Below, piece after piece: positions 9,255 through 25,939 of a DNA stretch of 56,354 bases. The notes beneath the pieces were generated by a model that was given only the letters and a program-made list of their open reading frames with translations, was not told the DNA's origin and did no database searches. The stretch is taken from the NCBI GenBank assembly GCA_030429005.1, contig JAUIDP010000013.1:1-56354 (forward strand). The letters are read 5' to 3'. Positions within the stretch are counted from its first letter, which is position 1; every line of letters starts with the position of its first letter. The translations under genes and the position numbers were made by a program. Source of the stretch: Gammaproteobacteria bacterium (GTDB lineage Bacteria > Pseudomonadota > Gammaproteobacteria > Steroidobacterales > Woeseiaceae).

Positions 9255-10735
9255 CCGGCAAGTTCTTGTTGACAATTGATGAGGGAACCAGCAGCACGCG
9301 AACCATCATCTACGATCATGAGATCCGCGTGGTTGCCAGCGCGCAACGGGAATTCAAACAACATTACCCGGTGCCGGGATGGGTGGAACACGATCCGGAA
9401 GAAATCTGGGCAGCGATACAGGTTGTCACCAGTGAAGCGATGCAATCAGCCGGCGCGGCTGCGGCCGACATAAGCGGTATCGGCATTACCAACCAGCGCG
9501 AAACGACGCTGGTCTGGGACCGCCGGTCGGGTGAGTGTATTTACAACGCGATCGTCTGGCAGGACCGGCGCACGGCTGCTGCCTGCGATACATTCCGGGC
9601 CGACGGCAAAGAGGCGTTGGTCGAAGGGCGTACCGGCTTGCGACTGGACCCGTATTTTTCAGCAACGAAGCTGGCCTGGATCCTCGATAACGTTGCCGGC
9701 GCCCGCGAGCGTGCTGAACGCGGCGAGCTCGCTTTCGGCACGGTTGACAGCTTTGTCCTGTGGCGCCTGACAGGCGGCAAGGTGCACGCAACGGATGCGA
9801 CCAACGCGTCGAGAACCATGTTATTCAATATTCACACCCAGCAGTGGGACGAGGAACTGCTGGAGCTGTTCGCTATCCCGGCCAGCCTGCTGCCGGCGGT
9901 GCACGATTGCGCAGAACAATACGGTGTCGGCGACTGCGCTGTGCTGCGCGGTGTACCTGTCCTCGGCATTGCAGGAGACCAGCAGGCGGCGCTCATCGGC
10001 CAGGCCGGGTTCGACCGCGGCACGGTCAAGAGCACCTACGGGACCGGTTGCTTCGTGCTGGCCAATACGTCGGACGAGGCACTGCAGTCGGCGAACAAGC
10101 TGTTGACGACCGTTGCCCTGAGGCTCGACGGCAAGGTCAGCTATGGCCTCGAAGGCAGCGTTTTTGTCGCGGGCTCGGCCATACAATGGCTGCGTGATGA
10201 GCTCGGACTGGTGGCCTCGTCAGAAGCGACCGAGGCGGTCGCCATGGAAACGGGCGTCGTTGATGATGTTCATGTCGTGCCGGCATTTGCCGGGCTGGGC
10301 GCGCCGTACTGGGACCCTTATGCGCGCGGCGCGGTGCTGGGCCTGACCCGCGGCAGCGGCCGTGAGCAGATCGTAACGGCCACGCTGCAGGCCATCGCCT
10401 ACCAGACCTGCGACCTGCTCGATGCCATGGTCGATGATGGCATCGCCCCGTCCATCATCAGGGTCGACGGCGGCATGGTTGCGAACAACTGGTTCCTGCA
10501 GTTTCTTGCCGATGTGCTGGGTATTGCAGTCGAACGTCCGACCGATGTCGAGTCCACCGCGCTCGGCGCAACCTATCTCGCCGGGCTGAGTGCGGGGCTG
10601 TTCGATTCGACCGATGCGATCGCTGCCAGGTGGCAAAGTGACCGCCTGTTCGAGCCGGAAATGAGCAACGATCGCCGGCAGGCGTTGTTGCAGGGTTGGC
10701 GTACCGCCGTTGGCCGGGTTGGCAGTCATGCTTAG
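9251..10735 (+). CDS. glpK: Glycerol kinase
   Basis: A 494-residue FGGY-family kinase phosphorylating glycerol to sn-glycerol 3-phosphate. It begins [18 protein letters not shown] (phosphate-binding loop), then [53 protein letters not shown] and the C-terminal [17 protein letters not shown], all standard for GlpK. The ATG at 9251 overlaps the stop of the thioesterase; longer upstream frames are shadows. No glycerol facilitator is adjacent. The product would feed the glycerol-3-phosphate dehydrogenase at 34190-35785. Its last 8 bases overlap the following kinase gene. Confidence 0.96.
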
Positions 10736-12014
10736 GGCACGGCAGAAAATCGGCAAGTACCGGATTATGGGTCGCATTTCGTCGGGCCCGCTGGCTGATG
10801 TCTATCGCGCCTTCGATACGATCCAGAAGCAGCGGGTGGCGTTGAAAATTCCGACGACCACGAGCGGCGCCACAGAAGCGGAGTTCCTGCACGAGGTGCA
10901 GGTCGCGACCCGGTTGCAGCACCCGAATATCCTGTCGGTCCTGAATGCGAGCTACATTGACGAGCATTTCGTGATTGCGATGGAACTCGGCGAGCAATCG
11001 CTGGCGGATCGGATCGAGCGGCGCATGTCCACGGCCAGCGCACTGGAGCTCGCCGGCCAGGCAATCAATTCGGTAGCCTTCGCGCACGAACACAAGATCA
11101 TCCATTGCGACATCAAGCCCGAGAATTTCATCCTGTTCCCTGGCAACCGGCTGAAGCTCGCCGACTTCGGCTTCGCCAAGGTCAGCCTGCGAACACTGAA
11201 AGCTTCCGGTTCCGGCACGATCGACTACATTGCACCGGAGCAGGCGATGGGCCGGCCCAAGTTCCAGTCTGACGTGTTCTCGCTCGGGCTGGTCCTGTAT
11301 CGACTGTTTTCGGGCAAATTGCCCGAGTGGCCATTCGAGTGGCCGATGCCCGGTCACGAACGGCTTGCAGCGCGCGTGCGCCCCGGACTGATTGCAATGC
11401 TGCGCAAGGCTATCCAGCTGGACCCGAAGAAGCGCTACCGCGACGCGGAACAGATGCGGGTCGAGTTTGATCGCATCGACAGCCGCTCGCGCCGGCAGAG
11501 AAAATCTCGTGGCAAAACCCGGGCACGCAACGGCAATTCCTGGCGGCGCATGCAGTGGCGTGAATTCCAGCAGCAATACCGCAGTACATTGCATACGCAT
11601 CACCAGTGCCGGCGTTGCGAGGGCCCGGTCGCGATGAGCATGCAGGCGTGCCCGTGGTGCGGTTTTGATAACCCGGCTCGCGGCTCGGAGTCGAACATGG
11701 CTTCAAGTTGCCCGCGCTGCGAGCGCGGCGTCAAGAATGACTGGGACTACTGCCCGTGGTGTTACGGCCCCGGCTTCGTTGCCGAGACGTCCCGTGTTTA
11801 CCCGGACAAGCGCTACACGAGTCGTTGCAGCAACAAGCGCTGCAAGGGCTTGCTGATGCCGTTCATGCGCTATTGCCCGTGGTGCCGAACAAAGGTCCGC
11901 AAGCCGTGGAAGCTGCCGGGCAAACGCAGCAGCTGCAAAGCCTGCAACTGGGGTATCGCCGCGGATTTCTGGAAATATTGCGCATGGTGCCGGGAACCCT
12001 TGCATCGTGAATAG
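10728..12014 (+). CDS. Ser/Thr protein kinase with four C-terminal zinc ribbons
   Basis: A 428-residue cytoplasmic Hanks-type kinase. The kinase domain (about 10-250) has a divergent glycine loop ([12 protein letters not shown]), ATP lysine K40 in VALKIP, E56, catalytic loop HCDIKPENF (H126-D128-N133; HCD instead of HRD), DFG at 147-149 and APE at 169-171. A basic linker (252-275, [11 protein letters not shown]) leads to four zinc-ribbon units, each with two Cys pairs: 294/297 with 308/311, 328/331 with 342/345, 367/372 with 383/386, and 403/406 with 418/421. The start is the ATG at 10728, overlapping the glpK stop. The next gene, a PP2C phosphatase, overlaps its end by 8 bases, so kinase and phosphatase form a translationally coupled pair. 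Kinases with zinc ribbons paired with PP2C and vWA proteins are known from TerY-P triads, and vWA genes lie downstream here. Confidence 0.92.
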
Positions 12015-12834
12015 TTCATTCACGGACGACGCAGTGTTGCTGGGTAGCGGGCTGACAGAGGATCGTCACGAAGGTGCTGTCGGCGGCGGCCAGGTGATCG
12101 GATTTTCCTGTCCCTCGCCGGATCGGGAAACGGAAAACGAAGACTGTGCCGCCGTCATTCCGTACGGCCCGGAAGCCGCGGTACTGGTCGTGGCAGACGG
12201 GGCCGGCGGCCTGCCGGCAGGGCGGCTCGCATCGCAGACTGCGGTTACAACGCTGGTTAGCAGCCTGCAGGACTCGGGACAGAAAACGATTGTACTGCGC
12301 ACGGCGGTTCTCGACGGTATCGAGGCCGCGAACGAGGCTGTGCTGGCCATGGCGAGCGGCGCGGCGACGACTTTCACCGTCGTCACGATCGAGGGTCGTA
12401 TTGCCCGTGCCTACCAGATCGGCGACTCGGAAGGCATGGTGGTCGGCCAGCGCGGCTTGTTGCGCCTGCAGACCCCGGTGCAGTCGCCAACCGGCTTCGC
12501 CGTGGAGGCCGGTTTTCTGAACGAACGCGAAGCCCTGCATCACCAGGACCGGCACCTGGTGTCGAATTTCCTAGGCAGCAGCGAGATGCGCATCGACATC
12601 GGCCATGCCGTCAAGCTGCAGGCGAGGGATACAATCCTGCTGGCGAGTGATGGACTGATGGACAACGTCCTGGTCGGTGAAATCGTCGAGCGAATTCGCA
12701 AAGGGCCGCTCGACAAAGCGGCAGATGCGGTTGTTGCGCTGGCGCGGCGGCGCATGAGCGGCACGGCACCGGAGCAGCCCAGCAAGCCGGACGACCTGAC
12801 CTTGTTGCTGTTCCGAAAGCCGTATCGCCCTTGA
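12007..12834 (+). CDS. PP2C-type protein Ser/Thr phosphatase
   Basis: A 275-residue single-domain metal-dependent phosphatase, predicted to reverse phosphorylation by the neighbouring kinases. Metal-ligand motifs are visible: ENEDCAAV (Asp 46), VVADGAGGLPAG (Asp 64), a GDSEG segment, LASDGLMDN and PDDLTLLL near the end. No membrane helix or regulatory domain is seen. The start is taken as GTG 12007, inside the end of the kinase gene; an 8-base overlap suggests coupling. It is followed by a 235-base gap before the glycine-rich lipoprotein, so the kinase/phosphatase pair might be expressed with glpK, or the whole region may be a longer transcript. Confidence 0.92.
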   Translation: MNSSFTDDAVLLGSGLTEDRHEGAVGGGQVIGFSCPSPDRETENEDCAAVIPYGPEAAVLVVADGAGGLPAGRLASQTAVTTLVSSLQDSGQKTIVLRTAVLDGIEAANEAVLAMASGAATTFTVVTIEGRIARAYQIGDSEGMVVGQRGLLRLQTPVQSPTGFAVEAGFLNEREALHHQDRHLVSNFLGSSEMRIDIGHAVKLQARDTILLASDGLMDNVLVGEIVERIRKGPLDKAADAVVALARRRMSGTAPEQPSKPDDLTLLLFRKPYRP

Positions 12835-13069
12835 AAATCAACAGGCTACGATTATGTCAATGCAGCGATGCACGGCCATGGCGCCGGCCCGGGTGCGGGT
12901 GTTGATCGATACGTGAGCGCGTATTATCGTCAGAGCACAGCTTGAACGTTGCCGGTGCGAAGACCGCACCGGTTTTCGATGGAACTCGGACCGCACTTTG
13001 TGGCTCAAATCCAGTAATCACGGCGCCTCGGGAGGCAGCCGTTACATCCCGGACCGAGAGGACAGGACC

Positions 13070-14401
13070 ATGAAACACAACCAGACCGCAGCACCGCTCT
13101 TCGCGTGGATCAAGCCATTAACGCTCGTCGTTGCTGCGTTCCTGGTAATCAGCGGCTGCAAATCGGAAATGACGGTGCCGACACCGCCGAGTAGTGGCGG
13201 TATGCCTGCACCGCCACCGCCGCCCAGTGGATCGTCGAGTGGCCAGTCCGGTAGCCAGTCCGGCGGGCAAAGCCAGCCGAGTGGCCAGTCGCAGGGGCAG
13301 AGCGGTGGCCAGTCCGGCGGACAAAGTGGCGGCCAGTCGGGTGGCCAGTCAGGCGGCCAATCGGGAGGACAATCCGGTGGATCGTCCGGCGGCCAGTCTG
13401 GCGGCGGTCAATCCGGTGGTGGTATGCCCGGTGGCGGCATGCCGGGTGGTGGCCAGTCGGGCGGCGGTATGCCGGGCGGTGGCATGCCCGGTGGCGGTTC
13501 ACAGAGCCCCAGTGGTTCGTCCGGCGGATCATCGGGCGGTGCCGGCGAAGTTGGCAGTTTTCCGGGTGGCGGTGGCGGCGATGACAGCATCCCGCCGCCC
13601 CCAAGTGAGCGCGGCAGTGGCAGTGGCGGCGATGCCAGCGGTTCCGCTGGCGGCGGCGGTGAATCGTCCGGTGGCCAGGGCGGTGCTGACGGCGACGGCG
13701 ACAGCAGCAGCGACGGCGACGGCCAGTCGGGTGGCGATTGCGGTGATACCGGCGCGCTGCCAGGCGGCGTTGGCGGTATGGGCCAGGCAGGCGAATGCCT
13801 CGGTGGCGGCGGTGCGGCCGCTGCGGACTCGGACGCTTCTGCTTCATCATCATCTGCTGCAGGTGGCGGCGGTGGTGGCGGCGGTTCGGCCGACGGTGAA
13901 GCGTCACCCGGTGGCGGTTCCGGCAGCGGTGACGGTAGCACTGGCTCGGTTGCGGGAACCGGCGGCGCCGGCAGTGCCGGTGAATTTCCCGAGGAAAGTG
14001 CCGACGAACGAGCGGCACGCCTCGGCAAGGAACTGGATGAGTCCATCGGCGGCTTCGATGAGGTACTGATGGAAGAACAACAGGAGGTTGCTGCAGTTGG
14101 CCGCAACACCGAAGGTTTCGGTGATGGCGGCGACGGCGGTGGCGGCGGCATCAGCCTGGGCCAGCAGGCCGCGGGCGCTGGAGGCGGTGTGACGGTCGCG
14201 AACAATTCGGCAATCGAGCGCGAGTCGCCGACGGCCGGGATGACCCAGGCTGAAATCGAGGAGCGTACGCCGGACGATATTGCCGTCATGGTTGACGATG
14301 ACATCATTGCCAGGCAGCTGCGCGAGGCAGCGCTGGCCGAGGAAGATCCTGCCTTGCGCGACCGGCTGTGGGAAGAATATCGCAAGTACAAAGGGCTGTG
14401 A
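13070..14401 (+). CDS. Low-complexity Gly/Ser/Gln-rich lipoprotein with conserved-looking C-terminus
   Basis: A 443-residue exported protein. The hydrophobic segment LTLVVAAFLVISGC ends in a lipobox with Cys 30. After it come a proline patch (PAPPPPP), GGQS tetrapeptide repeats (about 78-104), GGGMP repeats (about 116-143), then Gly/Ser/Asp-rich sequence to about 300. From about 305 the protein becomes ordered and charged: EESADERAARLGKELDESIG, and a C-terminal block DDIIARQLREAALAEEDPAL ending in EEYRKYKGL. The ATG at 13070 has GAGAGGAC upstream (13057-13064); the in-frame upstream extension is rejected. I read it as a flexible outer-membrane-anchored linker or surface element, with the C-terminal block as the binding part. 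Function unknown. Confidence 0.82.
   Translation: MKHNQTAAPLFAWIKPLTLVVAAFLVISGCKSEMTVPTPPSSGGMPAPPPPPSGSSSGQSGSQSGGQSQPSGQSQGQSGGQSGGQSGGQSGGQSGGQSGGQSGGSSGGQSGGGQSGGGMPGGGMPGGGQSGGGMPGGGMPGGGSQSPSGSSGGSSGGAGEVGSFPGGGGGDDSIPPPPSERGSGSGGDASGSAGGGGESSGGQGGADGDGDSSSDGDGQSGGDCGDTGALPGGVGGMGQAGECLGGGGAAAADSDASASSSSAAGGGGGGGGSADGEASPGGGSGSGDGSTGSVAGTGGAGSAGEFPEESADERAARLGKELDESIGGFDEVLMEEQQEVAAVGRNTEGFGDGGDGGGGGISLGQQAAGAGGGVTVANNSAIERESPTAGMTQAEIEERTPDDIAVMVDDDIIARQLREAALAEEDPALRDRLWEEYRKYKGL
13238..13504 (+). repeat. In-frame GGQS and GGGMP codon repeats
   Basis: About 270 bases of degenerate tandem repeats inside the lipoprotein gene. A 12-base unit of the type GGC-CAG-TCC-GGC recurs with synonymous changes, then a 15-base unit encoding Gly-Gly-Gly-Met-Pro. 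Third positions vary between units, so the protein repeat seems to be kept by selection on amino acids rather than being a recent duplication. Repeat number may differ between strains. Confidence 0.85.
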
Positions 14402-14418
14402 GGGGAACTCGCTGGCGT

Positions 14419-15648
14419 ATGAAGAAGATCACGCTGCTGATAAGTCTGTACGTGTTGTTGCCCGGGTGCTCCGTCAACGAGGTCATCACGGCCGAGGAAA
14501 CGGAACTGGTCGTGGCGGAGGCGCCGCCCGAAGAGAATCTGCTACTCGACATCGGCATCATCCAGTTTGCCGAGGGCGTGCCGGAGGACAATGAACCCAG
14601 CGATACCCAGGTCTTCGAGGAAATCCGCGCAGCCGAGTCGCGCTATCTTGCCTACCACCTGAAGAAAACCCTGCAAGGCAGCGGCCACTGGGGTGCGGTG
14701 CGTGTTATTCCATCCAGCAGCGCCTTTACCGACGTCATCATCGAAGGTGAAATCGTGGAGTCTGATGGCGAGTTCGTCACGCTGGACGTTGACATTCGCG
14801 ATGCGCGGGGCGTGCCCTGGTATCGCAAGTCGTACAGCACCCAGACCGGCGTTTCGTCGTATTCCGTGAATCGGGACCGGCGGCAGGATCCGTACCAGAA
14901 GATTTTCAATGACATTGCGAATGACCTGAGTGCCTATGTCGCGCAGATGGAACCGAAGTCGATCACGGATATCCGCAATGTATCGGAACTGCAATTCTTT
15001 GCCGATATGTCGCCCGAAGCTTATGGCGAGCACCTTGCAACTGACGAAGAAGGCTATACACAGGCCGTCAGGTTGCCGGCCGAGAACGACCCCGGCGTTG
15101 ATCGGCTGCGACGCATCCGCGAGCGCGACCGGCTCGTGGTCGACACGCTGAACGAGCACTATGCCAATTTTTATTACGGCATTGCGATCCCGTACCACTC
15201 GTGGCGCAAAACCGCCCGCGAAGAGTCGATTAACTACCGGCAGGTCAAACGCTCCGCCAACCTGCAGACACTGATGGGCGCCGTTGTGCTGGCCGGGTCG
15301 CTGGCGGTCAATACCGACAGCGGAGGCAAGCAAACCCGCTACATCAATCGCAGCTTGCAGGGCATCGGCATCCAGCAGGGCTGGGACACCATGTTCGGTG
15401 GTATATCGCGGCGTTCCGAGGCAAACATCCACCTGGAGTCCATCAAGGAACTGTCCGAGTCGTTCGGGGCAGAAGCGGCGCCGATGGTGATATCGGTAGA
15501 AGGACAGGCGCGGCGCCTGACCGGCACCGCTGCCGCGCAGTACGAGAGCTGGCGACGAATTCTGAAACAGATCTACGAGTCTGAGACCGGGTTTGTCGAG
15601 CCGGTCGACGAATCGCTTCCGGAACGCGTCCCAGAACCCACGGGCTAA
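14419..15648 (+). CDS. Uncharacterised envelope lipoprotein
   Basis: A 409-residue protein with a short signal peptide MKKITLLISLYVLLPGCS; Cys 17 would be lipidated. The body begins LLLDIGIIQFAEGVPE, followed by a region like the beta-rich fold of secreted accessory lipoproteins (ESRYLAYHLKKTLQGSGHWG, VIIEGEIVESDGEFVTLDVD) and a helical C-terminal half with a conserved-looking YYGIAIPYHSWRKTAREE. A possible short hydrophobic segment (LMGAVVLAGSLAV) lies near residue 290. The start at 14419 follows the previous stop by 17 bases. The overall appearance is that of periplasmic lipoproteins that accompany Ser/Thr kinase clusters; I cannot name the family. It probably works with the glycine-rich lipoprotein. 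Confidence 0.8.
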   Translation: MKKITLLISLYVLLPGCSVNEVITAEETELVVAEAPPEENLLLDIGIIQFAEGVPEDNEPSDTQVFEEIRAAESRYLAYHLKKTLQGSGHWGAVRVIPSSSAFTDVIIEGEIVESDGEFVTLDVDIRDARGVPWYRKSYSTQTGVSSYSVNRDRRQDPYQKIFNDIANDLSAYVAQMEPKSITDIRNVSELQFFADMSPEAYGEHLATDEEGYTQAVRLPAENDPGVDRLRRIRERDRLVVDTLNEHYANFYYGIAIPYHSWRKTAREESINYRQVKRSANLQTLMGAVVLAGSLAVNTDSGGKQTRYINRSLQGIGIQQGWDTMFGGISRRSEANIHLESIKELSESFGAEAAPMVISVEGQARRLTGTAAAQYESWRRILKQIYESETGFVEPVDESLPERVPEPTG

Positions 15649-15657
15649 AGAGACAGC

Positions 15658-17994
15658 GTGACGCAGGACCTGCACAAAGGGACGGAGCTCGCCGACCGTT
15701 ACACCCTGGTTCGTCAACTGGGTGCGGGACCGCAGACGCAAGCGTGGCTGGCAACGGATCGCATGACCCGGGCCAGCGTTGTACTGAAGATTCTGGGTCG
15801 CCAGGGGCTTTTACCAGCCGATCTCAAGGCGGAATGGCAAACCAGCATACGCCTGCTGCACCCGCACATTGTCCGCGTGTTCGAGTTTCACGACGATGCG
15901 GACGCCACCTTTTACAGCATGCAATTCGTTGACGGTGCGGATATCGCTGTGTTGAGCGGCGCACCGCTGGCGGACAGCCTGCCGGCGCTGGCGCTGATAG
16001 CCGGTGCGCTGGACTATGCGCACGGTAAAGGCGTCGTGCACAGGGACATCAAGGCAAGCAACATCCTGCTCGACAGGAACGGCGCGCCGTGGCTCACGGA
16101 CTTCGGCTCAGCCGCCGCGGTGAATACGCCGGCGAGCGGAGGCTCGCTGATCGCCGCGTCTCCGCAAACTCTTGCCGGGGAACCGGCCCAACCGGCCGAC
16201 GACGTGTTCGCATTCGGCGGCCTGGTATACGAGCTGGTGTCCGGTCGGTCGCCGTATTCATCGGCACGAACGCGCGAGGACATCCTGCACAAGCGTCCGG
16301 ACGCGCTGACGACGGCGGGCGGTGAACCGGTACCTGCTGCTGTCGCCGAACTCGTCGCCGATATGCTGGCGAAAGACGCTGCCGCACGGCCAGCAGCCAA
16401 AGCGGTCGCCAGCCGATTAGCCGCCGCAGGCTTCGAAGCGGCGCCGGCGCCGGCGCATTACATTGGCCGGGGCACGCCGGTCAGTGCAGAGCTGATCGAA
16501 ACCAGTCGCAGCATCAAGGCGCACAAACCGGCACGTGAAAAACCGGTGCCGGTTGGAACGCAGGAGAATTCGGGGATCAGTCCGAAGACACTGGGTGTCG
16601 GACTCGCGTTACTCGTGGTCCTGCTTATCGGTGTCGTTTTCGTCCTGCCGCGGACAGTTTCTGTCGACGGTCCCGAGGCGCCTGGCACCGCTGCCGAAGC
16701 ACCTGCAACAACAGATGCGGTGCAACCGGCCGAGTCTGATGCCGGGGCGCCGCAGCGCGACGCCCGCGTCGTGGCACGTACCGAGACAGACGAAGTACTC
16801 GGCGAATTGTTGTCGATGATGAACACGCTGGAGCAACGTGCGGTGCAGCGCTGGGGTGGCGCACGCTTTCGCCGGGCAAAGGAAATTTACGCCGAAGCCG
16901 ACGCTGCGTACCTGGCGCGTGACTATGCCACGGCGAGCGAAAAATACCGCGAGACAATTGCGGCCGTGGAGCCCCTGCTCGATGAGGTGGACAAAGTCTT
17001 TGCAGCGACCTATGCCGATGCAGAGGCGGCGCTCGAGGCTGCGAATACAGCGGACGCCTTGCAGTTGTTCGAGCTTGCCGTCGCCATCACGCCGGGGCAT
17101 GCAGGTGCGCGCGCCGGTCTTGCGCGAGCTCGCAACCTGGATACCGTGCTGACTTTGACAGATCGCGGGACGACGCTGGAGCGCAACCTGGAGCTGGAAG
17201 CAGCACAACAGAGTTTCCGCCAGGCCGTCGAGATCGATCCCAAGTGGCAGCCGGCGCAGGAAGGCCTGCAACGCGTCAGCACCGAACTGAATGAAATGCG
17301 TTTCGATATGCGCATGACGGAAGGGCTGTTAGCAATATCCGACGGCCACTACGATGCGGCACGCGCGGCTTTTCGTATGGCCCAGGAATTGAAACCGGAA
17401 TCCCGCGAGCCCGCCGACGGGCTGCTGCAGGTTGAACAGGAAATTCGCCTGAACCAGATCAGTGCATACGAGCAACAGGCCTTGCAGCAGCAGGAAGACG
17501 AAGCCTGGACAGAGGCCATTGCGACTTACGAGAAGATCCTCGAAATCGACGACAACCTGGTGTTCGCGCGCGATGGCTTGCAGGCGGCGCAACAGATGGC
17601 GGGCCTGCACGCACAGCTCGACGACTATATTGCCGAACCCAACAGCCTGAGCGCGCCGTCGACAATGCAAAAAGCGACGATGATGGTCGTGGACATCACG
17701 CGCATGGAATCCGTCGGGCCGGTCCTGGCCGGCAAACGCGACGAGCTGTCGCGGCTGTTGAAACGGGCGGCTACGCCGCTGCCCGTGCAGCTGGTCTCCG
17801 ACAATGCAACCGATGTTTCTGTCTACAAAGTTGGTAAACTCGGCAGCTTCGAAACTCACGAGTTGAGTTTGCGTCCCGGCAAGTATGTCGCCGTCGGCAG
17901 CCGTCCCGGCTACCGCGATGTGCGGCTCGAATTTCTTGTCGGGCCGGAACAGGAAACCGGACCGATAGTGATTCGTTGCGAGGAAGCCATTTGA
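15658..17994 (+). CDS. Membrane Ser/Thr protein kinase with extracytoplasmic TPR-like domain
   Basis: A 778-residue receptor-type kinase. The N-terminal kinase domain (about 12-262) has LGAGPQTQAWLA, K44 in VVLKIL, catalytic loop HRDIKASNILL (H128, D130, N135) and DFG 148-150; the APE motif is altered to SPQ. A single membrane helix (about 312-330, LGVGLALLVVLLIGVVFVLP) separates it from a helical periplasmic part with TPR-like units at about 400-640 (for example YEQQALQQQEDEAWTEAIATYE) and a small beta domain at the end. The start is GTG 15658, 9 bases after the previous stop. The next gene starts within its stop codon region (TTGA at 17991). Its periplasmic tail may sense the state of the envelope assembly encoded around it. 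Confidence 0.9.
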   Translation: MTQDLHKGTELADRYTLVRQLGAGPQTQAWLATDRMTRASVVLKILGRQGLLPADLKAEWQTSIRLLHPHIVRVFEFHDDADATFYSMQFVDGADIAVLSGAPLADSLPALALIAGALDYAHGKGVVHRDIKASNILLDRNGAPWLTDFGSAAAVNTPASGGSLIAASPQTLAGEPAQPADDVFAFGGLVYELVSGRSPYSSARTREDILHKRPDALTTAGGEPVPAAVAELVADMLAKDAAARPAAKAVASRLAAAGFEAAPAPAHYIGRGTPVSAELIETSRSIKAHKPAREKPVPVGTQENSGISPKTLGVGLALLVVLLIGVVFVLPRTVSVDGPEAPGTAAEAPATTDAVQPAESDAGAPQRDARVVARTETDEVLGELLSMMNTLEQRAVQRWGGARFRRAKEIYAEADAAYLARDYATASEKYRETIAAVEPLLDEVDKVFAATYADAEAALEAANTADALQLFELAVAITPGHAGARAGLARARNLDTVLTLTDRGTTLERNLELEAAQQSFRQAVEIDPKWQPAQEGLQRVSTELNEMRFDMRMTEGLLAISDGHYDAARAAFRMAQELKPESREPADGLLQVEQEIRLNQISAYEQQALQQQEDEAWTEAIATYEKILEIDDNLVFARDGLQAAQQMAGLHAQLDDYIAEPNSLSAPSTMQKATMMVVDITRMESVGPVLAGKRDELSRLLKRAATPLPVQLVSDNATDVSVYKVGKLGSFETHELSLRPGKYVAVGSRPGYRDVRLEFLVGPEQETGPIVIRCEEAI

Positions 17995-20417
17995 GTTTCG
18001 ACCACCTGCTGATCAGGGACGCTGAAGGTGAGCGTCGGATCGACGCTGCGGACCTGCCGTTGCGTGTCGGTACCGGCAGCGATTGCAGCTTGCGGCTGCC
18101 GGGGCCGGGTGGCGGACCGGTCGTACTGCTGGACCTGCTCGATGGCCAGCCCTTCGTTCAGCCCGTCGGCGGCGATGCGACGTTGCAAATCAATGCAGAG
18201 CCATTGCGAACCAGCAGGCGGCTGCACGCCGGCGACGAACTCCAATTCTTCGGCAGCCGAATTCGCGTGATCGTCGATGACGGTGCGCTGATTCTGCAGG
18301 TGCACCTCGAAGACAGTGCCTATGTTACGCAGCCGCCGGTGGAGGCAGCCGCGACGGCCAGCGCGGCGGATGAGCAAATTGCACCCACTGCGTTCCGGCG
18401 CGCGAGTGAAACGCAGGCGCGACTGGAAGAGCCGCGCCAGGGCCGGCTCAAAATCATCATCGGCGCGGTACTGCTGGTCCTGCTCAGCGCGTCGTACCTG
18501 CTGTTTACGTCGAAATCGATTCGCTTCGAGATTGACCCGGCCGACCCTGACAGCGTGCAGATTACCGGTGGCTGGTTCCGTTTTCCGATTGGTGACCGCA
18601 TCCTGTTGCGCAAGGGCGAGTACACCGTCGACATCGCCAAGCGGGGCTATTACGATTTGCGCCAGGCGTTTACCGTGGGCGACGAAGCCAGTATGCAGCT
18701 GGAGATTGAAATGCGACGGTTGCCCGGCCAGCTGACAGTTTCTACCGAGCCGCTGGTGGACGCAGTCGTTTCTATCGACGGGGCAATCGCCGGCAAAGTC
18801 CCGTACGGTCCGATGGAGCTGCAACCCGGCGAGCACAGCGTCAGCATCACGGCCGAACGCTACCTGCCTTTTTCCGACGTTGTCGACATGCAGGGCCTGG
18901 GCCGCGAAGAACTGCTGGCCGTGCAACTGGTGCCTCGCTGGGCCGAAGTCAGCATAACGACGGAACCTGCCGGCGCCACAATATTCGCCGGCAAGGAACA
19001 GGTCGGCGAGACACCGGCGACGATCGAACTGATGGAGGGCAAACACCTGGTCAGCGTCGTTCGCGAAGGCTATAGCGCCTGGGATGGCACGGTCACCGCC
19101 GAAGCGAACGTCGCACAAACGCTGCCGCCGATCCGCTTGCAGCCGGCCAACGCGAAATTGCAGGTCAACTCGATCCCGCGGGCAGCCAATGTCACGGTCA
19201 ATGGTCGCTATCGGGGGCAATCGCCACTCACGCTGGACCTGGCACCGGACGTCGACTATGTGATCAGCCTGTCCAAAGCCGGTTACGGCTCGTCACGCCG
19301 CCAGGTGCGACTGGCGGCCGCAGCGAGCGAAGCGATTACTGTCGACCTGTCGGCGCGCACCGGGCGCGTTACCGTCAACGTCTCACCGGCCGACGCTGAG
19401 GTCTATATTGACGGCCAGCCGCGTGGCGCCGGGTCGCGTACTTTTGACCTGAGTTCTGCGCCCCACCGGATCGAGGTCAAGAAAGCAGGCTTCGAGAGCT
19501 GGTCGCGATCGATTACACCGCGGCCGGGCTACCCGCAGACGGTGACCGCCAGTATTCGTTCGCTCGAGGCAATCGAGCGGGCAAAAATCCAGCTGACTCA
19601 GGAGACGTCACAGGGGCAGGTCATGCGGCGAATCGAGCCTGGTACTTTCACACTGGGTTCATCTCGATCGGACCCCGGCCGCCGGGCCAACGAAGTGCTG
19701 GTGCCCGTTACGATCAGCAAGCCGTTCCTGATTGGAGTTCGTGAGATCACCAACAAGGAGTTTCGCAAGTTCCGCGAGAACCATGATTCCGGCAGCGATA
19801 TTCACGCCACGATGGCGGGCGACGAAAACCCCGTGGCAATGGTGAGCTGGGGCGACGCTGCTGAATACTGTAACTGGCTCAGTGCGATCGAGGGCCTGAC
19901 GCCGGCTTACGAGCAGAAATTCGGGGAGTGGATTGCCATCCGCCCCGTGACGAATGGTTACCGGCTGCCGACTGAAGCCGAATGGGTCTGGGCGATGCGT
20001 TACGCCGGTACACCCGGTGCGCAGCGCTTCCCCTGGGGCAAGGACATGCCGCCGAAAAAGGACTCTGGCAATTATGCGGACCAGTCGGCCAGCGATCTTG
20101 TGCCAACGACGATTCCGCGCTTCGACGACGGTTTCGCCGCAACGGCGCCGACCGGCAGTTTCCCGGCGAGCCCGCTTGGCATTTATGACGGTGGCGGCAA
20201 CGTCGCCGAGTGGGTCAATGATTTCTACACGGTACCCACACCCGGATTGAAAAACCCGGTTGTCGATCCACTCGGGCCGGAGAACGGCAAGCCGCGTGTT
20301 ATTCGCGGATCGTCATGGCGACATGCGGGCGAAACCGAGTTGCGCTGGTCGTATCGCGACTACGGTACCGATGCGCGTCCGGATGTCGGGTTCCGGATCG
20401 TGCGCAACCTGGACTGA
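17991..20417 (+). CDS. FHA-like / TM / PEGA-repeat / FGE-sulfatase-fold protein
   Basis: An 808-residue membrane protein. The cytoplasmic N-terminus (about 1-105) looks like a divergent FHA beta sandwich (LRVGTGSDCSLRLPG, then RRLHAGDELQFFGSRIRVI) but lacks the usual SRxH core. One membrane helix lies at about 153-172. The outside part has PEGA-type repeats (about 247-315, 317-385, 387-453, 457-520, each with a strand such as AEVSITTEPAGATIFAGKEQ) and a C-terminal formylglycine-generating-enzyme/SUMF1 fold (about 545-806) with NGYRLPTEAEWVWAMRYAG, GGGNVAEWVNDF and RPDVGFRIVR. The catalytic cysteines of true FGE are absent, so it is probably a binding domain. The TTG start at 17991 overlaps the kinase stop and has AGGAAG at 17981-17986. 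Confidence 0.88.
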   Translation: MSFDHLLIRDAEGERRIDAADLPLRVGTGSDCSLRLPGPGGGPVVLLDLLDGQPFVQPVGGDATLQINAEPLRTSRRLHAGDELQFFGSRIRVIVDDGALILQVHLEDSAYVTQPPVEAAATASAADEQIAPTAFRRASETQARLEEPRQGRLKIIIGAVLLVLLSASYLLFTSKSIRFEIDPADPDSVQITGGWFRFPIGDRILLRKGEYTVDIAKRGYYDLRQAFTVGDEASMQLEIEMRRLPGQLTVSTEPLVDAVVSIDGAIAGKVPYGPMELQPGEHSVSITAERYLPFSDVVDMQGLGREELLAVQLVPRWAEVSITTEPAGATIFAGKEQVGETPATIELMEGKHLVSVVREGYSAWDGTVTAEANVAQTLPPIRLQPANAKLQVNSIPRAANVTVNGRYRGQSPLTLDLAPDVDYVISLSKAGYGSSRRQVRLAAAASEAITVDLSARTGRVTVNVSPADAEVYIDGQPRGAGSRTFDLSSAPHRIEVKKAGFESWSRSITPRPGYPQTVTASIRSLEAIERAKIQLTQETSQGQVMRRIEPGTFTLGSSRSDPGRRANEVLVPVTISKPFLIGVREITNKEFRKFRENHDSGSDIHATMAGDENPVAMVSWGDAAEYCNWLSAIEGLTPAYEQKFGEWIAIRPVTNGYRLPTEAEWVWAMRYAGTPGAQRFPWGKDMPPKKDSGNYADQSASDLVPTTIPRFDDGFAATAPTGSFPASPLGIYDGGGNVAEWVNDFYTVPTPGLKNPVVDPLGPENGKPRVIRGSSWRHAGETELRWSYRDYGTDARPDVGFRIVRNLD

Positions 20418-20483
20418 AGAATCGTGCGACAATTGCGGCCGATTGTTGTCTAACACCCCAACAACGACTGACCGGGAGCTGAA

Positions 20484-20747
20484 GTGCCAAGAATTGCCCT
20501 GCTGATAATGCTGTTGGCCGGCATAGTAACTGTCGCGGCAGCACAGGATGATGCCGACGCGCCTGCCGAAGTTTCCGCCGACGAGGCAGCACCGGCGGAC
20601 GACGAACCGGCAGAGGCGGATGCCGCCGAGGAAGCGGCGGAGCCGCCGCCGGCCGACGAGTATTACCAGGACGTCGACGACGAGGATTTTCGTCCCAGCG
20701 AAGACATTCCCGCCGACCAGTCCATCCCTTTTCCAGCCGACATTTAG
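20484..20747 (+). CDS. Small acidic exported protein
   Basis: An 87-residue protein with a signal peptide (IALLIMLLAGIVTVAAAQ) followed by an Ala/Asp/Glu/Pro-rich, strongly acidic, probably disordered chain ending DVDDEDFRPSEDIPADQS. The GTG at 20484 has GGGAG at 20473-20478, and the gene fits in the operon between the PEGA protein and the MotA/TolQ-like gene (14-base gap). The opposite-strand frame over the same bases is a GC shadow. No family recognised; it could be a flexible periplasmic adaptor. Confidence 0.7.
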   Translation: MPRIALLIMLLAGIVTVAAAQDDADAPAEVSADEAAPADDEPAEADAAEEAAEPPPADEYYQDVDDEDFRPSEDIPADQSIPFPADI

Positions 20748-20761
20748 CCGAAGCGCAATCT

Positions 20762-21562
20762 ATGAAAAAGAAAAACATACCGTTCGAATTCGTCTACCAG
20801 CTGTTTGCACTGATCATTGCGATCATCATCGTGCACGCGTTCTATGTTTCAGTGATCCGGCCAAATGCTGCGCAAATTATCGAGGAACAGAACGCGGCTG
20901 CCGCGGCTGACCCGGACTACATTCGCGAACGGCGCGTGTCCGTACTGATCAAGGACCTGGAGCAGGAAGCCTGTTTCATCCTGGGCCTGTGGGCGCTTGC
21001 AATCATGGCATACAAGGCCTGGATGATCGTCCGCGAACGCCGCCTGCTGGATGTTGACCTGGTGCCGGTTGCCGAGGGCATGCGCATCCTGCCTGAGGAC
21101 ACGCGCGAGTTCGCGCGGCAGATCGAGCAACTGCCGGAAGACCGGCAGTCGATGCTGTTGCCGCGCGCCTTGCTTAGCGCGTTGCGCCGTTTCAGTTCGA
21201 CACGCAGTATCCAGGACGTATCCAGCACAACACATACGATTTGCGAGAATGAGGCCGAGCGGCTCGAATCGGAATTGTCGATGATCCGCTATATCTCCTG
21301 GGCTATCCCGTCCATCGGCTTCATCGGTACGGTACGCGGCATCGGTGAAGCACTGGCGCAGGCAGACAAAGCCGTGCAGGGCGATATTGCAGGTGTAACG
21401 CAGAGTCTCGGCGTCGCGTTCAACTCCACCTTTATCGCGTTGCTGATCAGCATCTTCCTGATGTTCCTCGTGCACCAGCTGCAACTGCTGCAGGAACGGC
21501 TGGTGTTCGACAGCGAAAACTACGCCAATGACAAGTTGATTCGGCACATGAAGGCCGACTGA
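20762..21562 (+). CDS. MotA/TolQ/ExbB-family proton channel-like protein
   Basis: A 266-residue inner-membrane protein. Helices are predicted at about 12-32, 70-90, 178-197 and 222-242. The third has the family core WAIPSIGFIGTVRGIGEALA, equivalent to the P-x-x-G-x-x-G-T-V block of TolQ/ExbB/MotA, and the fourth begins GVAFNSTFIALLISIF, matching the TolQ T-x-x-G-L helix. In characterised systems a pentamer of such a protein surrounds two single-pass partners with a membrane Asp and turns ion flow into work at the cell envelope. The downstream vWA proteins have a suitable Asp-containing helix. ATG 20762; small cytoplasmic loop between helices 2 and 3 (about 90-177). Confidence 0.88.
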   Translation: MKKKNIPFEFVYQLFALIIAIIIVHAFYVSVIRPNAAQIIEEQNAAAAADPDYIRERRVSVLIKDLEQEACFILGLWALAIMAYKAWMIVRERRLLDVDLVPVAEGMRILPEDTREFARQIEQLPEDRQSMLLPRALLSALRRFSSTRSIQDVSSTTHTICENEAERLESELSMIRYISWAIPSIGFIGTVRGIGEALAQADKAVQGDIAGVTQSLGVAFNSTFIALLISIFLMFLVHQLQLLQERLVFDSENYANDKLIRHMKAD

Positions 21563-21573
21563 CGGACCGGTAG

Positions 21574-22938
21574 TTGAGCCTGCTTGCTGCACATATCAAC
21601 GATGCGGGAATCAGCGTTCTCGATGCTGACCGTGTGTTGTATCGCGAACCAGGGTTTGCGTTGCTCGAAGACGATGGCCTGGTCACCGGCGCAAAAGCTT
21701 ACGCAAGTTCCCGTATCCGCCCGCGGCGCATCCAGAACCGGTTCTGGGCCGACCTGGATGCGGCACCAATTGGTGATCGGCAGTTCCAGCATTTGAGCAA
21801 TGCCGACCTGGTCAGCCGGCAACTCGAACAGGTCTGGCAAGCGGTTGCGGGCAGTGGTGATCGTCTTGTCGTTGCCGTTCCGGCTTACATGGGCAACAGC
21901 CAGCTCGGCCTGTTACTCGGCATTGCTGAAGAACTGCGGATTCCGATCGTCGCCCTCGTCGATGCCGCCGTGGCTGCAACCCGGCGCGAGTACCGCAACG
22001 CTGTTCCGGTCCACATCGATATCGGTCTGCACTCGGTCACGCTGAGCCGCATGTCGCAGGCGGGTTGTGCGAGCGTCGAACGCGTGGAGGTGATCGAGGA
22101 TGCTGGCATGCTTGCGCTGTTCGATGCGTGGCGTAAGGTTGTCGCGGAGGCTTTCGTACAGCAATCCCGTTTCGATCCGCTGCATACTGCGGAAACCGAG
22201 CAGGTACTCCAGGACCGGCTGACAGACTGGCTGCAGCGCGCGACGGGTTCTGCCGCGGTCACAATGGAGATCAGCAACCAGGGCGTGAGCCACGGGGTGG
22301 AAGTCGATGCGTTGTCACTGGTGTCAGCTGCCGCGCCGGTTTACCAGCGCATCGCCAGCCGTTTGCGCGCACTGTACCGCGCGGATGAAACACCGGCCCT
22401 GCAGCTGACCGATCGCGCAGCCAGGATGCCGGGACTGACCGACATGCTGGTGGCACGGGTTGGCGGCGAGTTGTTCCTGCTTGAAGCCGGTGCGACGGCG
22501 CGCGGTCTCATCGGCCGCTGCCGCGATATGCAGGCAGGAAGTGGTGGTGTCAGTTTGCTGCGGCAACTGCCGTGGGACCAGGCCGCCGTAGACATTGCGC
22601 CAAAAGAATTCGCCTCCGAAGGCGGGCGGCCGACGCATGTGTTGTACGAGCATACTGCCTATGCGCTGGACGGCGATGCATTGCAGGTCGGCTCGCAGCC
22701 CGGCGAGGGTCGCTGGATCGACCTGCAAGCCAGCATGCCCGGTGTGTCGCGGCATCATTGCTCACTACAACTGGAGAACGGGCAATGCGTGATTCGCGAC
22801 TTCAGCCGATATGGTTCGTTCCTGAACGGGCACGCGATTGACGGTTCAGCTGTCTTGCAGGTTGGCGACCTCGTGCGCATTGGAACGCCGGGCTTCGAAC
22901 TGCGCCTGATCACGACGGAGACGGCTAATGGCGCGTAA
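21574..22938 (+). CDS. Actin/Hsp70-fold protein with C-terminal FHA domain
   Basis: A 454-residue cytoplasmic protein. The first about 330 residues look like a degenerate Hsp70/actin-type ATPase fold: ISVLDADRVLY at the N-terminus, DRLVVAVPAYMGNSQLGLLL, IVALVDAAVAATRREY (in the place of the NEPTAAAL segment) and VPVHIDIGLHSVTLSRM (phosphate-2-like). Residues about 365-445 form a canonical FHA domain with MPGVSRHHCSLQLEN and RDFSRYGSFLNG, containing the SRxH and S-x-x-x-N phosphothreonine-binding residues. It would therefore read out phosphorylation by one of the two kinases. TTG 21574 is the only sensible start; its end overlaps the next gene by 11 bases. Confidence 0.83.
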   Translation: MSLLAAHINDAGISVLDADRVLYREPGFALLEDDGLVTGAKAYASSRIRPRRIQNRFWADLDAAPIGDRQFQHLSNADLVSRQLEQVWQAVAGSGDRLVVAVPAYMGNSQLGLLLGIAEELRIPIVALVDAAVAATRREYRNAVPVHIDIGLHSVTLSRMSQAGCASVERVEVIEDAGMLALFDAWRKVVAEAFVQQSRFDPLHTAETEQVLQDRLTDWLQRATGSAAVTMEISNQGVSHGVEVDALSLVSAAAPVYQRIASRLRALYRADETPALQLTDRAARMPGLTDMLVARVGGELFLLEAGATARGLIGRCRDMQAGSGGVSLLRQLPWDQAAVDIAPKEFASEGGRPTHVLYEHTAYALDGDALQVGSQPGEGRWIDLQASMPGVSRHHCSLQLENGQCVIRDFSRYGSFLNGHAIDGSAVLQVGDLVRIGTPGFELRLITTETANGA

Positions 22939-24025
22939 ACGACGCCCGTTCGAGGTCTTCAGCATGTCGTTTCTCGATTGCATGAGTTGCGGCTTCGGCG
23001 CCGTCATCCTGTTCTTCATGATCATCAACTCGCAGGTCCGAGAGACGACGGAAAGCGATCCGACGGACCTGATGGCCGAGACCCGCAAGATCGAAGTTGA
23101 AATCCTCGAAGGCCGTAAAGACCTCGTCCTTGCGAAAAACACGATGGAGCAGCTGGAGACCGAAAAAACGACGGCAGAGGGGCAGATTGCGCAGATCGTC
23201 GCACTGATCGAGAAACTGCGCGAAGAGTTGTCGCAGTACGACGAGGAGACGCTGGCCAAGATCGAGCGCGTCGAACAGCTCGAGTCAGACATCGAGCGCC
23301 TCGAAGAAGAAGTCAAACGCCTGCTGGCGCTGGCCGAGAGCCGTGAGGCCGAAGGCAACAAGCTGCGGGAATTCAAAGGGGATGGCGACCGGCAGTACCT
23401 GACCGGGCTGAAGCTCGGCGGGCAGCGAACGCTGATCCTGGTCGACCGATCGGCCAGCATGCTGGACAGTACGATCGTCAACATCATCCGGCGTCGCAAC
23501 ATGGACGTCGAGGACAAACTCGCCGCGGTCAAGTGGCGCCAGGTCGTTGCAAGTGTCGACTGGCTGACCGCGCAGTTCCTGCCTGGCAGCGAATTCCAGA
23601 TCTACATGTTCAACGAAAAGGCGGAACCGGTCATCAAGGGCAGCGAGGGTGTCTGGTTGAAAGCCGACGACAACACCCAGCTTGACGAAGCAGTCCGGGT
23701 CCTGCGGCGTACGCCGCCGGAAAACGGCACCAACATGCAGGCGGCCTGGGAGGTAGCTGCCAGCCTGTCGCCGCCGCCGGACAACATCATCCTGCTGGCC
23801 GACGGCTTGCCGACCATGAGCAGCCCGGATGACGACCGGAAAACCGTCAGTGGCCAGGAACGCTACCGGATGCATTTCAACGCATTGCGTGAACTGCCGC
23901 CCGGCATCCCGGTCAATGTATTTCTGTACCCGCTGGAAGGCGACTACGAGGCGCCGTTCGTTTACTGGGTCCTGGCCTACCGCACGGGCGGCTCGTTCAT
24001 CAGCGTCAGCCGGGACTGGCCATGA
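22928..24025 (+). CDS. Single-pass vWA protein with TolR/ExbD-like membrane helix (first of pair)
   Basis: A 365-residue membrane protein. A basic N-terminus (MARKRRPFEV) precedes SFLDCMSCGFGAVILFFMI (about 14-32), a helix with Asp 17 that recalls the P-F-[IL]-D-V-x-L-x-L-L-I-F-M helix of ExbD/TolR. A coiled coil runs from about 48 to 140. The C-terminal vWA domain (about 165-360) has a complete metal site: D173-x-S175-x-S177, T268 in NGTNM, and D292 in LLADGLPT. The topology is N-in, vWA in the periplasm. It overlaps the FHA gene by 11 bases and is followed by its paralogue after 31 bases. Predicted role: moving partner of the MotA/TolQ-like channel; inference. Confidence 0.88.
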   Translation: MARKRRPFEVFSMSFLDCMSCGFGAVILFFMIINSQVRETTESDPTDLMAETRKIEVEILEGRKDLVLAKNTMEQLETEKTTAEGQIAQIVALIEKLREELSQYDEETLAKIERVEQLESDIERLEEEVKRLLALAESREAEGNKLREFKGDGDRQYLTGLKLGGQRTLILVDRSASMLDSTIVNIIRRRNMDVEDKLAAVKWRQVVASVDWLTAQFLPGSEFQIYMFNEKAEPVIKGSEGVWLKADDNTQLDEAVRVLRRTPPENGTNMQAAWEVAASLSPPPDNIILLADGLPTMSSPDDDRKTVSGQERYRMHFNALRELPPGIPVNVFLYPLEGDYEAPFVYWVLAYRTGGSFISVSRDWP

Positions 24026-24056
24026 GGCTTTCGTTGCAATCCGGGAATGAGCTTTA

Positions 24057-25052
24057 ATGAAGCGACGTCGAAATATTGAAGCTTTCAGCCTGTCCTTCCT
24101 GGACTGCATTTGCTGCGGATTCGGCGCAATCATCCTGCTGCTGGTACTCAGCAAGATTTACGAGCCGGTCATAATCGAGAAGACCCAGGAGGACCTGGAG
24201 TCCCTGATCGCCCTGCTGCAGGAAGAGCTGTTCGATATCCGTGGCGAAACGGCAGTGATCAACCGCGAACTGGAGGACGTGCGGATGCAAACCTCCGACA
24301 GCAAACTCCGGCTGGCGCGGCTGCAGGGCGAGTTGAGCACGATACGCGGGCAATACGAGGCGACCCAGACAACCGCCGAGTCGGTCGTCGACGAAGGAGC
24401 GTTGCAGATCACCCGGCAGCGCCTGACCGATGAAATGAAACGTCTTGCGCCTTATTACCGCCGCGCATCAGACGATGCGGTGGCCGGTATCCCGGCCGAC
24501 AGCGAATACGTCATATTTATTGTCGATACGTCGGGCAGCATGCAGCGCTTCAACTGGGAACGTGCAATCGACAAGCTTAACGAAACCCTGGATGTCTACC
24601 CGCAGGTCAAGGGCATCCAGATCATGAACGACAACGGCAGCTATATGTTCCAGCAGTATCGCGGCAAGTGGATACCCGATACGCCGGGCCGCCGCGAAGC
24701 GATCGTCAACACGATGCGCAACTGGCGGCCGTTCAGTGACAGCAACCCGACCGACGGCATCATCTACGCGATCAGCACCTTCTGGTCGCCGGACAAGAAA
24801 ATCAGCATCTACGTTTTTGGCGACGAGTTCAGTGGTGGCTCGGTCGAGAACGTCGTGCGGCAGATCGAGACGGTGAATCGGCCGACGGCGAGTGGCGAGT
24901 TGCTGGTGCGGATTCACGCTGTCGGGTTCCCGTTCCTGTTCGAACCGGGCCGTTCAGCGTCGGATACGTCGCGGCGCTTTGCACAGCTGATGCGGGTCTT
25001 GTGCGATCGCAACGGTGGCACCTTCGTCGCCTTGTCCGACCCGAAGAGCTAG
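24057..25052 (+). CDS. Single-pass vWA protein with TolR/ExbD-like membrane helix (second of pair)
   Basis: A 331-residue paralogue of the preceding protein with the same plan. The N-terminus has MKRRRNIEAF then SLSFLDCICCGFGAIILLLV with Asp 16 in the helix. A coiled coil (about 40-105) leads to a vWA domain (about 148-328) with D157-T-S159-G-S161, T232 in NPTDG and D256 in VFGDEFSG, so the metal site is intact. The overall identity to the first vWA protein is low outside the membrane helix, which suggests two different subunits, not a recent duplication. It is the last clear member of the kinase/stator operon. Confidence 0.88.
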   Translation: MKRRRNIEAFSLSFLDCICCGFGAIILLLVLSKIYEPVIIEKTQEDLESLIALLQEELFDIRGETAVINRELEDVRMQTSDSKLRLARLQGELSTIRGQYEATQTTAESVVDEGALQITRQRLTDEMKRLAPYYRRASDDAVAGIPADSEYVIFIVDTSGSMQRFNWERAIDKLNETLDVYPQVKGIQIMNDNGSYMFQQYRGKWIPDTPGRREAIVNTMRNWRPFSDSNPTDGIIYAISTFWSPDKKISIYVFGDEFSGGSVENVVRQIETVNRPTASGELLVRIHAVGFPFLFEPGRSASDTSRRFAQLMRVLCDRNGGTFVALSDPKS

Positions 25053-25914: not shown

Positions 25915-25939
25915 GCCGGCCTTCGGGCCGGCTTTTTTT
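25915..25939 (+). terminator. Rho-independent terminator
   Basis: A perfect 7-base-pair stem GCCGGCC / GGCCGGC with a TTCG loop (25922-25925) is followed directly by seven T (25933-25939). It lies 46 bases after the OmpA-like gene and 34 bases before phhB, so it closes the upstream transcript. Confidence 0.92.

Follow-up and report, generated by a model that had tools for sequence, protein, structure and literature searches.

The window analyzed here is a stretch of 56,354 nucleotides from a gammaproteobacterium of the family Woeseiaceae (contig JAUIDP010000013.1, assembly GCA_030429005.1), and within it we examined a locus of 11 plus-strand genes at positions 10728 to 25052. We found that three of these genes, which encode a MotA/TolQ/ExbB-like channel protein and two single-pass membrane proteins with von Willebrand factor A (vWA) domains (vWA1 and vWA2), are likely to specify the core of an ion-driven motor in the inner membrane, whose two long arms extend toward the outer membrane, with a predicted stoichiometry of 5:2. 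Genes for a membrane-anchored tetratricopeptide repeat (TPR) protein, a membrane protein with PEGA domains and a formylglycine-generating enzyme (FGE) fold, two lipoproteins, and a small secreted protein accompany this core, and for the whole we favor, with some reserve, a machine that spans the envelope and is powered by the flow of ions. The parts, their key residues, and the gene order are read directly from the DNA.

Both hallmarks of 5:2 ion-driven motors were found at the locus, namely, a channel protein of the MotA/TolQ/ExbB family with pore threonines and single-pass partners with an aspartate in the membrane helix. In alignments of relatives, T190, R192, and T223 of the channel protein were invariant (100 of 100), as was the membrane aspartate, located where the helix begins, in vWA1 (D17, 95 of 95) and in vWA2 (D16, 82 of 82). 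The DxSxS metal site was present in 92 of 95 vWA1 sequences, the other three having gaps, and in all 82 vWA2 sequences (D157, S159, and S161). Among 20 further distant loci, the membrane aspartate was found in 20 of 20 vWA1 and 20 of 20 vWA2 proteins and the motif GTVRGI in all 19 of the channel proteins found, and one vWA1 protein (locus L154) was without the metal-site pattern. Seven MotA_ExbB matches occur in the genome that holds the window. Six of them, spread over five contigs, lie close to ExbD matches; for the seventh, the channel gene of the locus, no ExbD-type match was found nearby or on the contig in this genome, the only one examined for it. In the four of the six other channel proteins that were read in frame, threonines aligned with T190 and T223, and the position of the membrane aspartate in the vWA proteins matched that in the ExbD proteins of the same genome in an alignment judged by eye. 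The vWA1 and vWA2 genes lie side by side in every locus where both were found. We also observed that vWA1 ends in the residues DWP (24014 to 24022), with the tryptophan and proline present in 89 of 95 relatives and gaps in the remaining 6.

The distance from the membrane aspartate to the metal ion-dependent adhesion site (MIDAS) was 135 to 158 residues in vWA1 and 132 to 145 in vWA2 in 93 of 120 loci, and in the six distant loci where it could be measured both stalks were short (135 to 140 and 132 to 137, respectively). The heptad signal in the vWA1 stalk was strong, with 0 of 2,000 shuffles scoring as high. These features of the channel and vWA proteins fit an AF3 prediction, given in section 8 of PMC12204202 (2025), of a heterologous vWA pair as the axle beside a tolQ homologue. 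The core with its two vWA subunits has thus been published already and is not new here.

Gene content was compared across 66 distinct loci with enough flanking DNA, drawn from 120 that were fetched; a channel gene was required, and one duplicate, L154 (in which no channel gene was found), and loci with short flanks were excluded. The PEGA-FGE, channel, and vWA1 genes were found in all 66 loci, lipoprotein LP2 and the TPR part in 65 each, the tail of the small protein in 64, the Gly-rich lipoprotein and vWA2 in 61 each, and the FHA protein in 56, while a kinase profile was found in 37, the OmpA-like protein and an STK1-like kinase in 21 each, and the PP2C phosphatase in 15. The order of seven core genes was identical in 58 of the 66 loci, more than expected by chance; of the loci without this order, two (L056 and L057) have the Gly-rich lipoprotein gene after vWA2, and six are without at least one core gene. 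An earlier note on this DNA had suggested a search of related genomes for a conserved neighborhood, and one was found. The loci L056 and L057 are a second, divergent copy of the gene set in two genomes of one family, and five others (L043, L108, L112, L114, and L115), in which 4.7 to 8.7 kb separate the PEGA-FGE gene from the channel gene and vWA2 was not detected, represent a variant form of the machine.

Among 369 genomes of the class, 31 had a strong match to vWA1 (E up to 1e-30), as did 15 among 398 genomes of the phylum; adding weaker matches raised these tallies to 40 and 22, respectively, and the genome that holds the window is counted in both. At least 595 pattern matches were obtained in named genomes, 587 of which encode a channel relative. 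The best 80, which were kept, are titled mostly Woeseiaceae, Gammaproteobacteria, or Proteobacteria, and some are titled Acidobacteria/Thermoanaerobaculia, Desulfobacterales, or Rhodospirillaceae; any of these bins may carry a wrong label. One named, cultured strain with the locus is Pseudomaricurvus alcaniphilus MEBiC06469.

The channel gene is preceded in the window by a 344-base gap after the PEGA-FGE gene, and this gap holds a small gene. The corresponding gap is 161 to 511 bases long in 88 of 93 relatives measured and 4.7 to 8.7 kb in the other five. Counting that of the window, 79 of 89 gaps contained an open frame ending in [FYW]Px[DNEHS][IVLM], and 0 of 160 reverse-strand frames used as a control had this ending. 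Within the search pattern, the last residue was Ile in 79 of 79 frames, position -2 was Asp in 66 or Asn in 13, and position -5 was Phe in 75 or Tyr in 4; outside the pattern, position -19 was Phe in 78, position -17 Pro in 76, and position -16 Ser or Thr in all 79. Ten gaps had no frame with the pattern: in one the frame was cut ahead of its stop, two ended in PVDF, four in PADI or PSDI, and one in SSEL, and two had no such tail. In all 12 distant loci inspected, two of which are among those 10 gaps, a frame ending in PxDI stands ahead of the channel gene, and in 11 of them it encodes barely more than an anchor and the tail, for example, SIQLNSAASFPVDI. The proportion of nonsynonymous differences in the tail (pN, 0.33) was below that of synonymous differences (pS, 0.81) in a sample of 1,500 pairs drawn from 78 tails, and the synonymous sites were close to saturation. 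Because a coding tail is present in 79 of 89 gaps against 0 of 160 reverse-strand frames and pN is below pS, we ruled out the gap as a mere promoter region.

A genome-wide profile search matched the small protein in 56 of 60 relatives, the very genomes in which vWA1 was found; the match was on the contig of vWA1 in 49, on another contig in 6, and elsewhere, as one weak match, in 1 (G040). A search of a protein collection gave 1,754 matches at E up to 0.01, and none of the 120 listed carries a Pfam domain. This is a family of small secreted proteins with a near-invariant FPx(D/N)I tail, unannotated in the material searched.

The Gly-rich lipoprotein matched no Pfam family and is of low complexity save for a conserved C-terminal tail of about 35 residues resembling DDDIVARQLREAALAEEDPELRERLWEEYRKYK; in an alignment of 25 sequences, all 10 invariant columns (residues 411 to 440) fell within this tail. 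The Pfam scan of LP2 gave a subthreshold lipobox only. Its structural model has a mean confidence (pLDDT) of 83.3, and its N-terminal domain resembles FlgT, PelC, CsgG, PqiC, and TolB domains. Those proteins are located at or near the outer membrane, and some of them form rings. FGE enzymes bear an active-site cysteine pair after a GSSW-type motif. The PEGA-FGE protein has a cysteine after GSSW in 0 of 29 sequences, and we rejected its identity as such an enzyme on the basis of this cysteine-free segment; cysteines elsewhere in the domain were seen at position 632 in 22 sequences, at 747 in 2, and at 673 and 809 in 1 each.

The same protein has an FGE-fold likeness to GldK and PorK (94.5 bits on the GldK model; E of 2.5e-24 with PorK chains), and this bears on a rival reading, in which the locus would encode a secretion or surface-motility machine like Bacteroidota GldKLMN or Myxococcus Agl-Glt, the motor driving the passage of a surface protein across the envelope or its travel along it. 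The likeness of LP2 to the export-ring lipoproteins PelC and CsgG also favors it, and Agl-Glt, as described in passages of PMC3169522 and PMC9389320, likewise has two axle proteins that differ from each other, along with TPR and FHA proteins and a secreted protein of 89 amino acids. However, the GldK score is far below the cut-off of 350, which led us to reject assignment to the type IX secretion system (T9SS) by GldK, an ExbD-type partner was not found in the locus, and no substrate or adhesin was recognized among the 16 recurrent neighbor clusters listed, 3 of which were Pfam scanned. A search of the genome for SprA gave no match, as was also the case in control genomes. We regard this rival as unlikely.

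Outside the family to which the window belongs, 30 loci (L047, L050, L106, and 27 others) are flanked by at least one of three extra genes, encoding two unnamed lipoproteins and a TPR protein, and 25 of the 30 have all three. The cluster of extra TPR proteins occurs at 27 loci, and its sole scanned representative matched the TonB C-terminal domain at 25.4 bits (cut-off, 24.6). An absence of TonB genes, remarked on earlier, holds for the window but may not extend to those 27 loci. One of the extra lipoproteins has a relative on another contig (C12) of the genome that holds the window.

The kinase, phosphatase, and FHA genes show a different pattern of retention. The STK1-type kinase has the HxD and DFG aspartates in 21 of 21 matches, of which four (L046, L048, L055, and L105) sit at the position of the TPR-protein kinase, and the phosphatase has Asp 64, 215, 262, and 263 in 17 of 17 sequences. 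Such aspartates are metal ligands in PP2C enzymes. The STK1-PP2C pair lies upstream only in the family of the window and downstream in L054, L093, and L096. Among 78 loci, the kinase residues of the TPR protein were intact in 39, intact save at the end of the DFG motif in 4, and degenerate in 10, and the TPR part was unfused in 25; in 5 of these 25 (L049, L052, L103, L105, and L120, with L049 and L120 being one contig), a separate frame of 271 to 304 amino acids stands in front. The FHA protein has an Hsp70/actin-like fold ahead of its FHA domain (AF2 pLDDT, 89.6), and Foldseek matched this N-terminal part to Hsp70 domains, among them 4gni_A (E, 9.4e-15; TMt, 0.66). Of the residues that we take to be canonical for an FHA reader of phosphothreonine (the GR arginine, SxxH, and N), Ser was found in 65, His in 64, and Asn in 84 of 91 sequences. 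The column of the clamp arginine is uncertain: Arg occurs in 8 of 91 sequences at column 374 and in 46 of 91 at column 380, where it could serve, and an alignment with Ki-67 places it at column 378, where Arg is not among the commonest residues.

The earlier note had proposed that ion flow through the channel acts on the vWA subunits and that phosphorylation turns this on and off. The channel and the vWA pair are motor-like in their sequence hallmarks, but phosphorylation as a general switch was not borne out. Because the TPR-protein kinase is degenerate or unfused at 35 of the 78 loci and no FHA gene was found at 10 of the 66, we rejected control by kinase, PP2C, and FHA proteins as part of the core; given this variable complement, phosphorylation looks like an optional layer retained by some lineages. 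The same data bear on a second rival, a sensor of load or damage in which the vWA heads would sense the outer membrane or the cell wall, with ion flow signaling inward to the kinase, phosphatase, and FHA protein. The genes for all three are in the window, and PMC7159879 describes, as a theme, a zinc-ribbon kinase encoded next to PP2C and vWA genes. Since the PEGA-FGE, LP2, and TPR parts are kept in 65 to 66 of 66 loci while the putative receivers of the signal are variable, we consider this rival improbable, more so than a secretion or motility machine.

To account for the retained parts, we envisage that five channel subunits surround one vWA1/vWA2 pair and that ion flow turns or tilts this pair within the ring. 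The stalks, of roughly 100 residues and about 15 nm if helical, would carry the vWA heads over the periplasm, where the heads could take hold of extended peptides belonging to envelope partners and let them go; vWA metal sites bind such peptides, as described in part of PMC7159879. The best candidates would be two C-terminal tails, the FPx(D/N)I tail of the small protein and that of the Gly-rich lipoprotein. By gripping, the heads might pull on or remodel an outer-membrane assembly based on LP2, with the TPR and PEGA-FGE proteins forming a cage that holds the motor. In the family of the window, the cytoplasmic kinase and phosphatase and the Hsp70-like/FHA scaffold would gate the motor, and several other lineages would manage without some or all of these gating parts. 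In its most specific form, this would be a rotary motor with a peptide clutch, in which the two metal-site heads of a vWA1/vWA2 axle with a length-measured stalk seize the free FPx(D/N)I tail and the lipoprotein tail helix and put force on a new outer-membrane ring of the CsgG/FlgT fold; we put this form forward tentatively, as possible and well short of probable. If it holds, the small protein would be a general part of the vWA motor class.

Several points weigh against these proposals. The heptad signal of the vWA2 stalk was weak (p of about 0.05), the correlation between stalk lengths was modest (rho, 0.26 in 93 loci and 0.54 in 25 distinct pairs), and stalk length was not measurable in 27 of the 120 loci. 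Exceptions to the core were also seen, with vWA2 undetected in 5 of 66 loci (the widely spaced ones named above), the channel gene located after vWA2 in L151, and no channel gene found in L154. Position -2 of the small-protein tail is Asn in 13 of 79 frames. Peptide gripping by the heads, and the choice of peptide, is what we infer from the sequences.

The features of the locus are given in Table 1. The count of 11 plus-strand genes in the earlier note was confirmed, and the 10 junctions, with the starts chosen, measure -8, 235, 17, 9, -19, 66, 14, 11, -11, and 31 bases; the single gap of 235 bases ahead of the Gly-rich lipoprotein is therefore as that note gave it. Its product families also hold. 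Two kinases (122.3 and 99.1 bits), PP2C_2, PEGA (four stretches), FGE, MotA_ExbB, and FHA exceeded curated Pfam cut-offs, and vWA1 matched VWA_2 at 27.3 bits (cut-off, 27.0); vWA2 scored below the cut-off, at 18.4, yet has the invariant DxSxS site. Ten products had been named, and the eleventh gene, counted without a description, is the small gene with the conserved tail. A scan for terminator-like sites gave 10, compared to 15.1 in shuffles, so that only the shape of the site at 25915 to 25932 counts; the transcription unit probably extends through the OmpA-like gene to this strong terminator. No Rfam family was found in the window at Rfam thresholds. The OmpA-like protein, whose profile was found in 21 of 66 loci, scored 137.9 bits on TIGR03789 (cut-off, 152.2) and may be a cell-wall anchor of the gene set in the family of the window. 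We rejected its identity as the dedicated sortase partner PdsO, with the score below the cut-off and the sortase on another contig; that contig (C106, locus L169) encodes a marine-type sortase at 204.4 bits, over its cut-off, apart from the PdsO-like gene.

Table 1. Features of the motor locus and its downstream end, with positions in the window
Feature	Position	Strand	Basis
STK1, Ser/Thr kinase bearing zinc ribbons at its C terminus (accessory module)	10728..12014	+	Pkinase 122.3 bits; DZR 28.1 (cut-off 27.3)
PP2C phosphatase (accessory module)	12007..12834	+	PP2C_2 47.4 bits
Gly/Ser/Pro-rich lipoprotein with conserved C-terminal tail of ~35 aa	13070..14401	+	Present in 61/66 loci
Lipoprotein LP2; N-domain with FlgT/PelC/CsgG/TolB-N kind of fold, long helices after	14419..15648	+	
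Kinase-transmembrane (TM; 305-338)-TPR protein; TM/TPR part core, kinase optional	15658..17994	+	Pfam, hydropathy, locus counts
TM (156-182)-4 PEGA-FGE-fold protein, FGE cysteines absent	17976..20417	+	PEGA 151.8 bits, FGE 136.7 bits, hydropathy
Small gene of 87 codons, encoding a signal or anchor, an acidic linker, and a tail with the last residues FPADI	20484..20747	+	
MotA/TolQ/ExbB-like channel subunit (predicted motor A subunit)	20762..21562	+	PF01618 55.2 bits (cut-off 22.9)
Hsp70/actin-like (ASKHA) fold domain and C-terminal FHA domain	21574..22938	+	AF2, Foldseek, FHA 45.2 bits
vWA1: Asp17 in the TM, then coiled coil and MIDAS-bearing vWA head; terminal DWP	22928..24025	+	Alignment, heptads
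vWA2: Asp16 in the TM, then helical stalk and MIDAS-bearing vWA head	24057..25052	+	Alignment
Glycine-zipper OmpA-like protein, PdsO-like; probable final gene of unit	25168..25869	+	OmpA 44.1 bits
Intrinsic terminator	25915..25932	+	7 G-C pairs then TTTTTTTATT

Compared with known systems, the locus shares with MotAB, ExbBD, and TolQR the channel family, its threonines, and the membrane aspartate. It differs in that vWA heads replace the OmpA or ExbD/TolR periplasmic domains, in that the channel protein scores 34.1 bits on the TolQ model (cut-off, 221), and in the arginine that follows GTV in 100 of 100 relatives, where four homologues from the same genome have W, T, M, or T. With a partner that carries vWA and no ExbD match on the contig, strict membership in these families was rejected. 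So was Tol-Pal, as no TolR, TolA, TolB, Pal, or TolQ model exceeded its cut-off among the proteins scanned; the OmpA-like protein reached 52.2 bits with the Pal model (cut-off, 125.35). A third rival, an antiphage defense system related to Zorya, draws on a weak ZorA match (18.8 bits in PADLOC; 14 bits against a cut-off of 500). Yet ZorB, ZorC, and ZorD are absent among the matches listed for eight proteins scanned (the best 25 for each of the two kinases), the kinase matches are generic, and the occurrence of vWA1 in 56 of 60 relatives is unlike the patchy distribution of defense genes. We rejected Zorya itself and hold a related system to be very improbable. The T9SS core GldKLMN also has an FGE-fold protein adjoining its motor, but here the fold is on a TM-PEGA protein, not a lipoprotein, and the GldK match is below the cut-off. 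Myxococcus Agl-Glt, as described in PMC3169522, resembles the locus in combining a channel with two distinct axle proteins, in its FHA and TPR proteins, and in having a small protein that is secreted, but its axle proteins are of the ExbD/TolR family and its FHA domain is on a membrane protein. The conflict-system theme of kinase, zinc-ribbon, PP2C, and vWA genes outlined in PMC7159879 shares the zinc-ribbon kinase beside PP2C, whereas the vWA proteins here are membrane anchored, motor type, and apart from the kinase-PP2C pair.

A close likeness is to the TPH-vWA/TolQ motors predicted in PMC12204202, where Idiomarina proteins were used; its section 8 has heterologous vWA genes paired next to tolQ homologues where tolR and exbD are lacking, together with a membrane aspartate and a threonine ring. 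That section has no kinase, PEGA, FGE-fold, lipoprotein, or small-tail genes, and the word "kinase" does not occur in the main text. We found no description of the wider set of TPR, PEGA/FGE-fold, lipoprotein, and small-tail genes in the open-licence papers of PubMed Central (PMC) that were searched, preprints excluded, and a term search of PMC12505986 gave no vWA passage. The view of the locus as undescribed thus fails for the core with paired vWA subunits and stands for the kinases, lipoproteins, PEGA/FGE protein, and small gene, as far as that section of PMC12204202 goes. Mot, Tol, Ton, Gld, and Agl are bacterial means of doing work on the outer membrane or surface, and the locus would add another. 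A predicted core of three genes would thereby become a machine with a defined part list, testable gene by gene, with an optional regulatory layer and a tiny part whose near-invariant tail points to a small-protein family.

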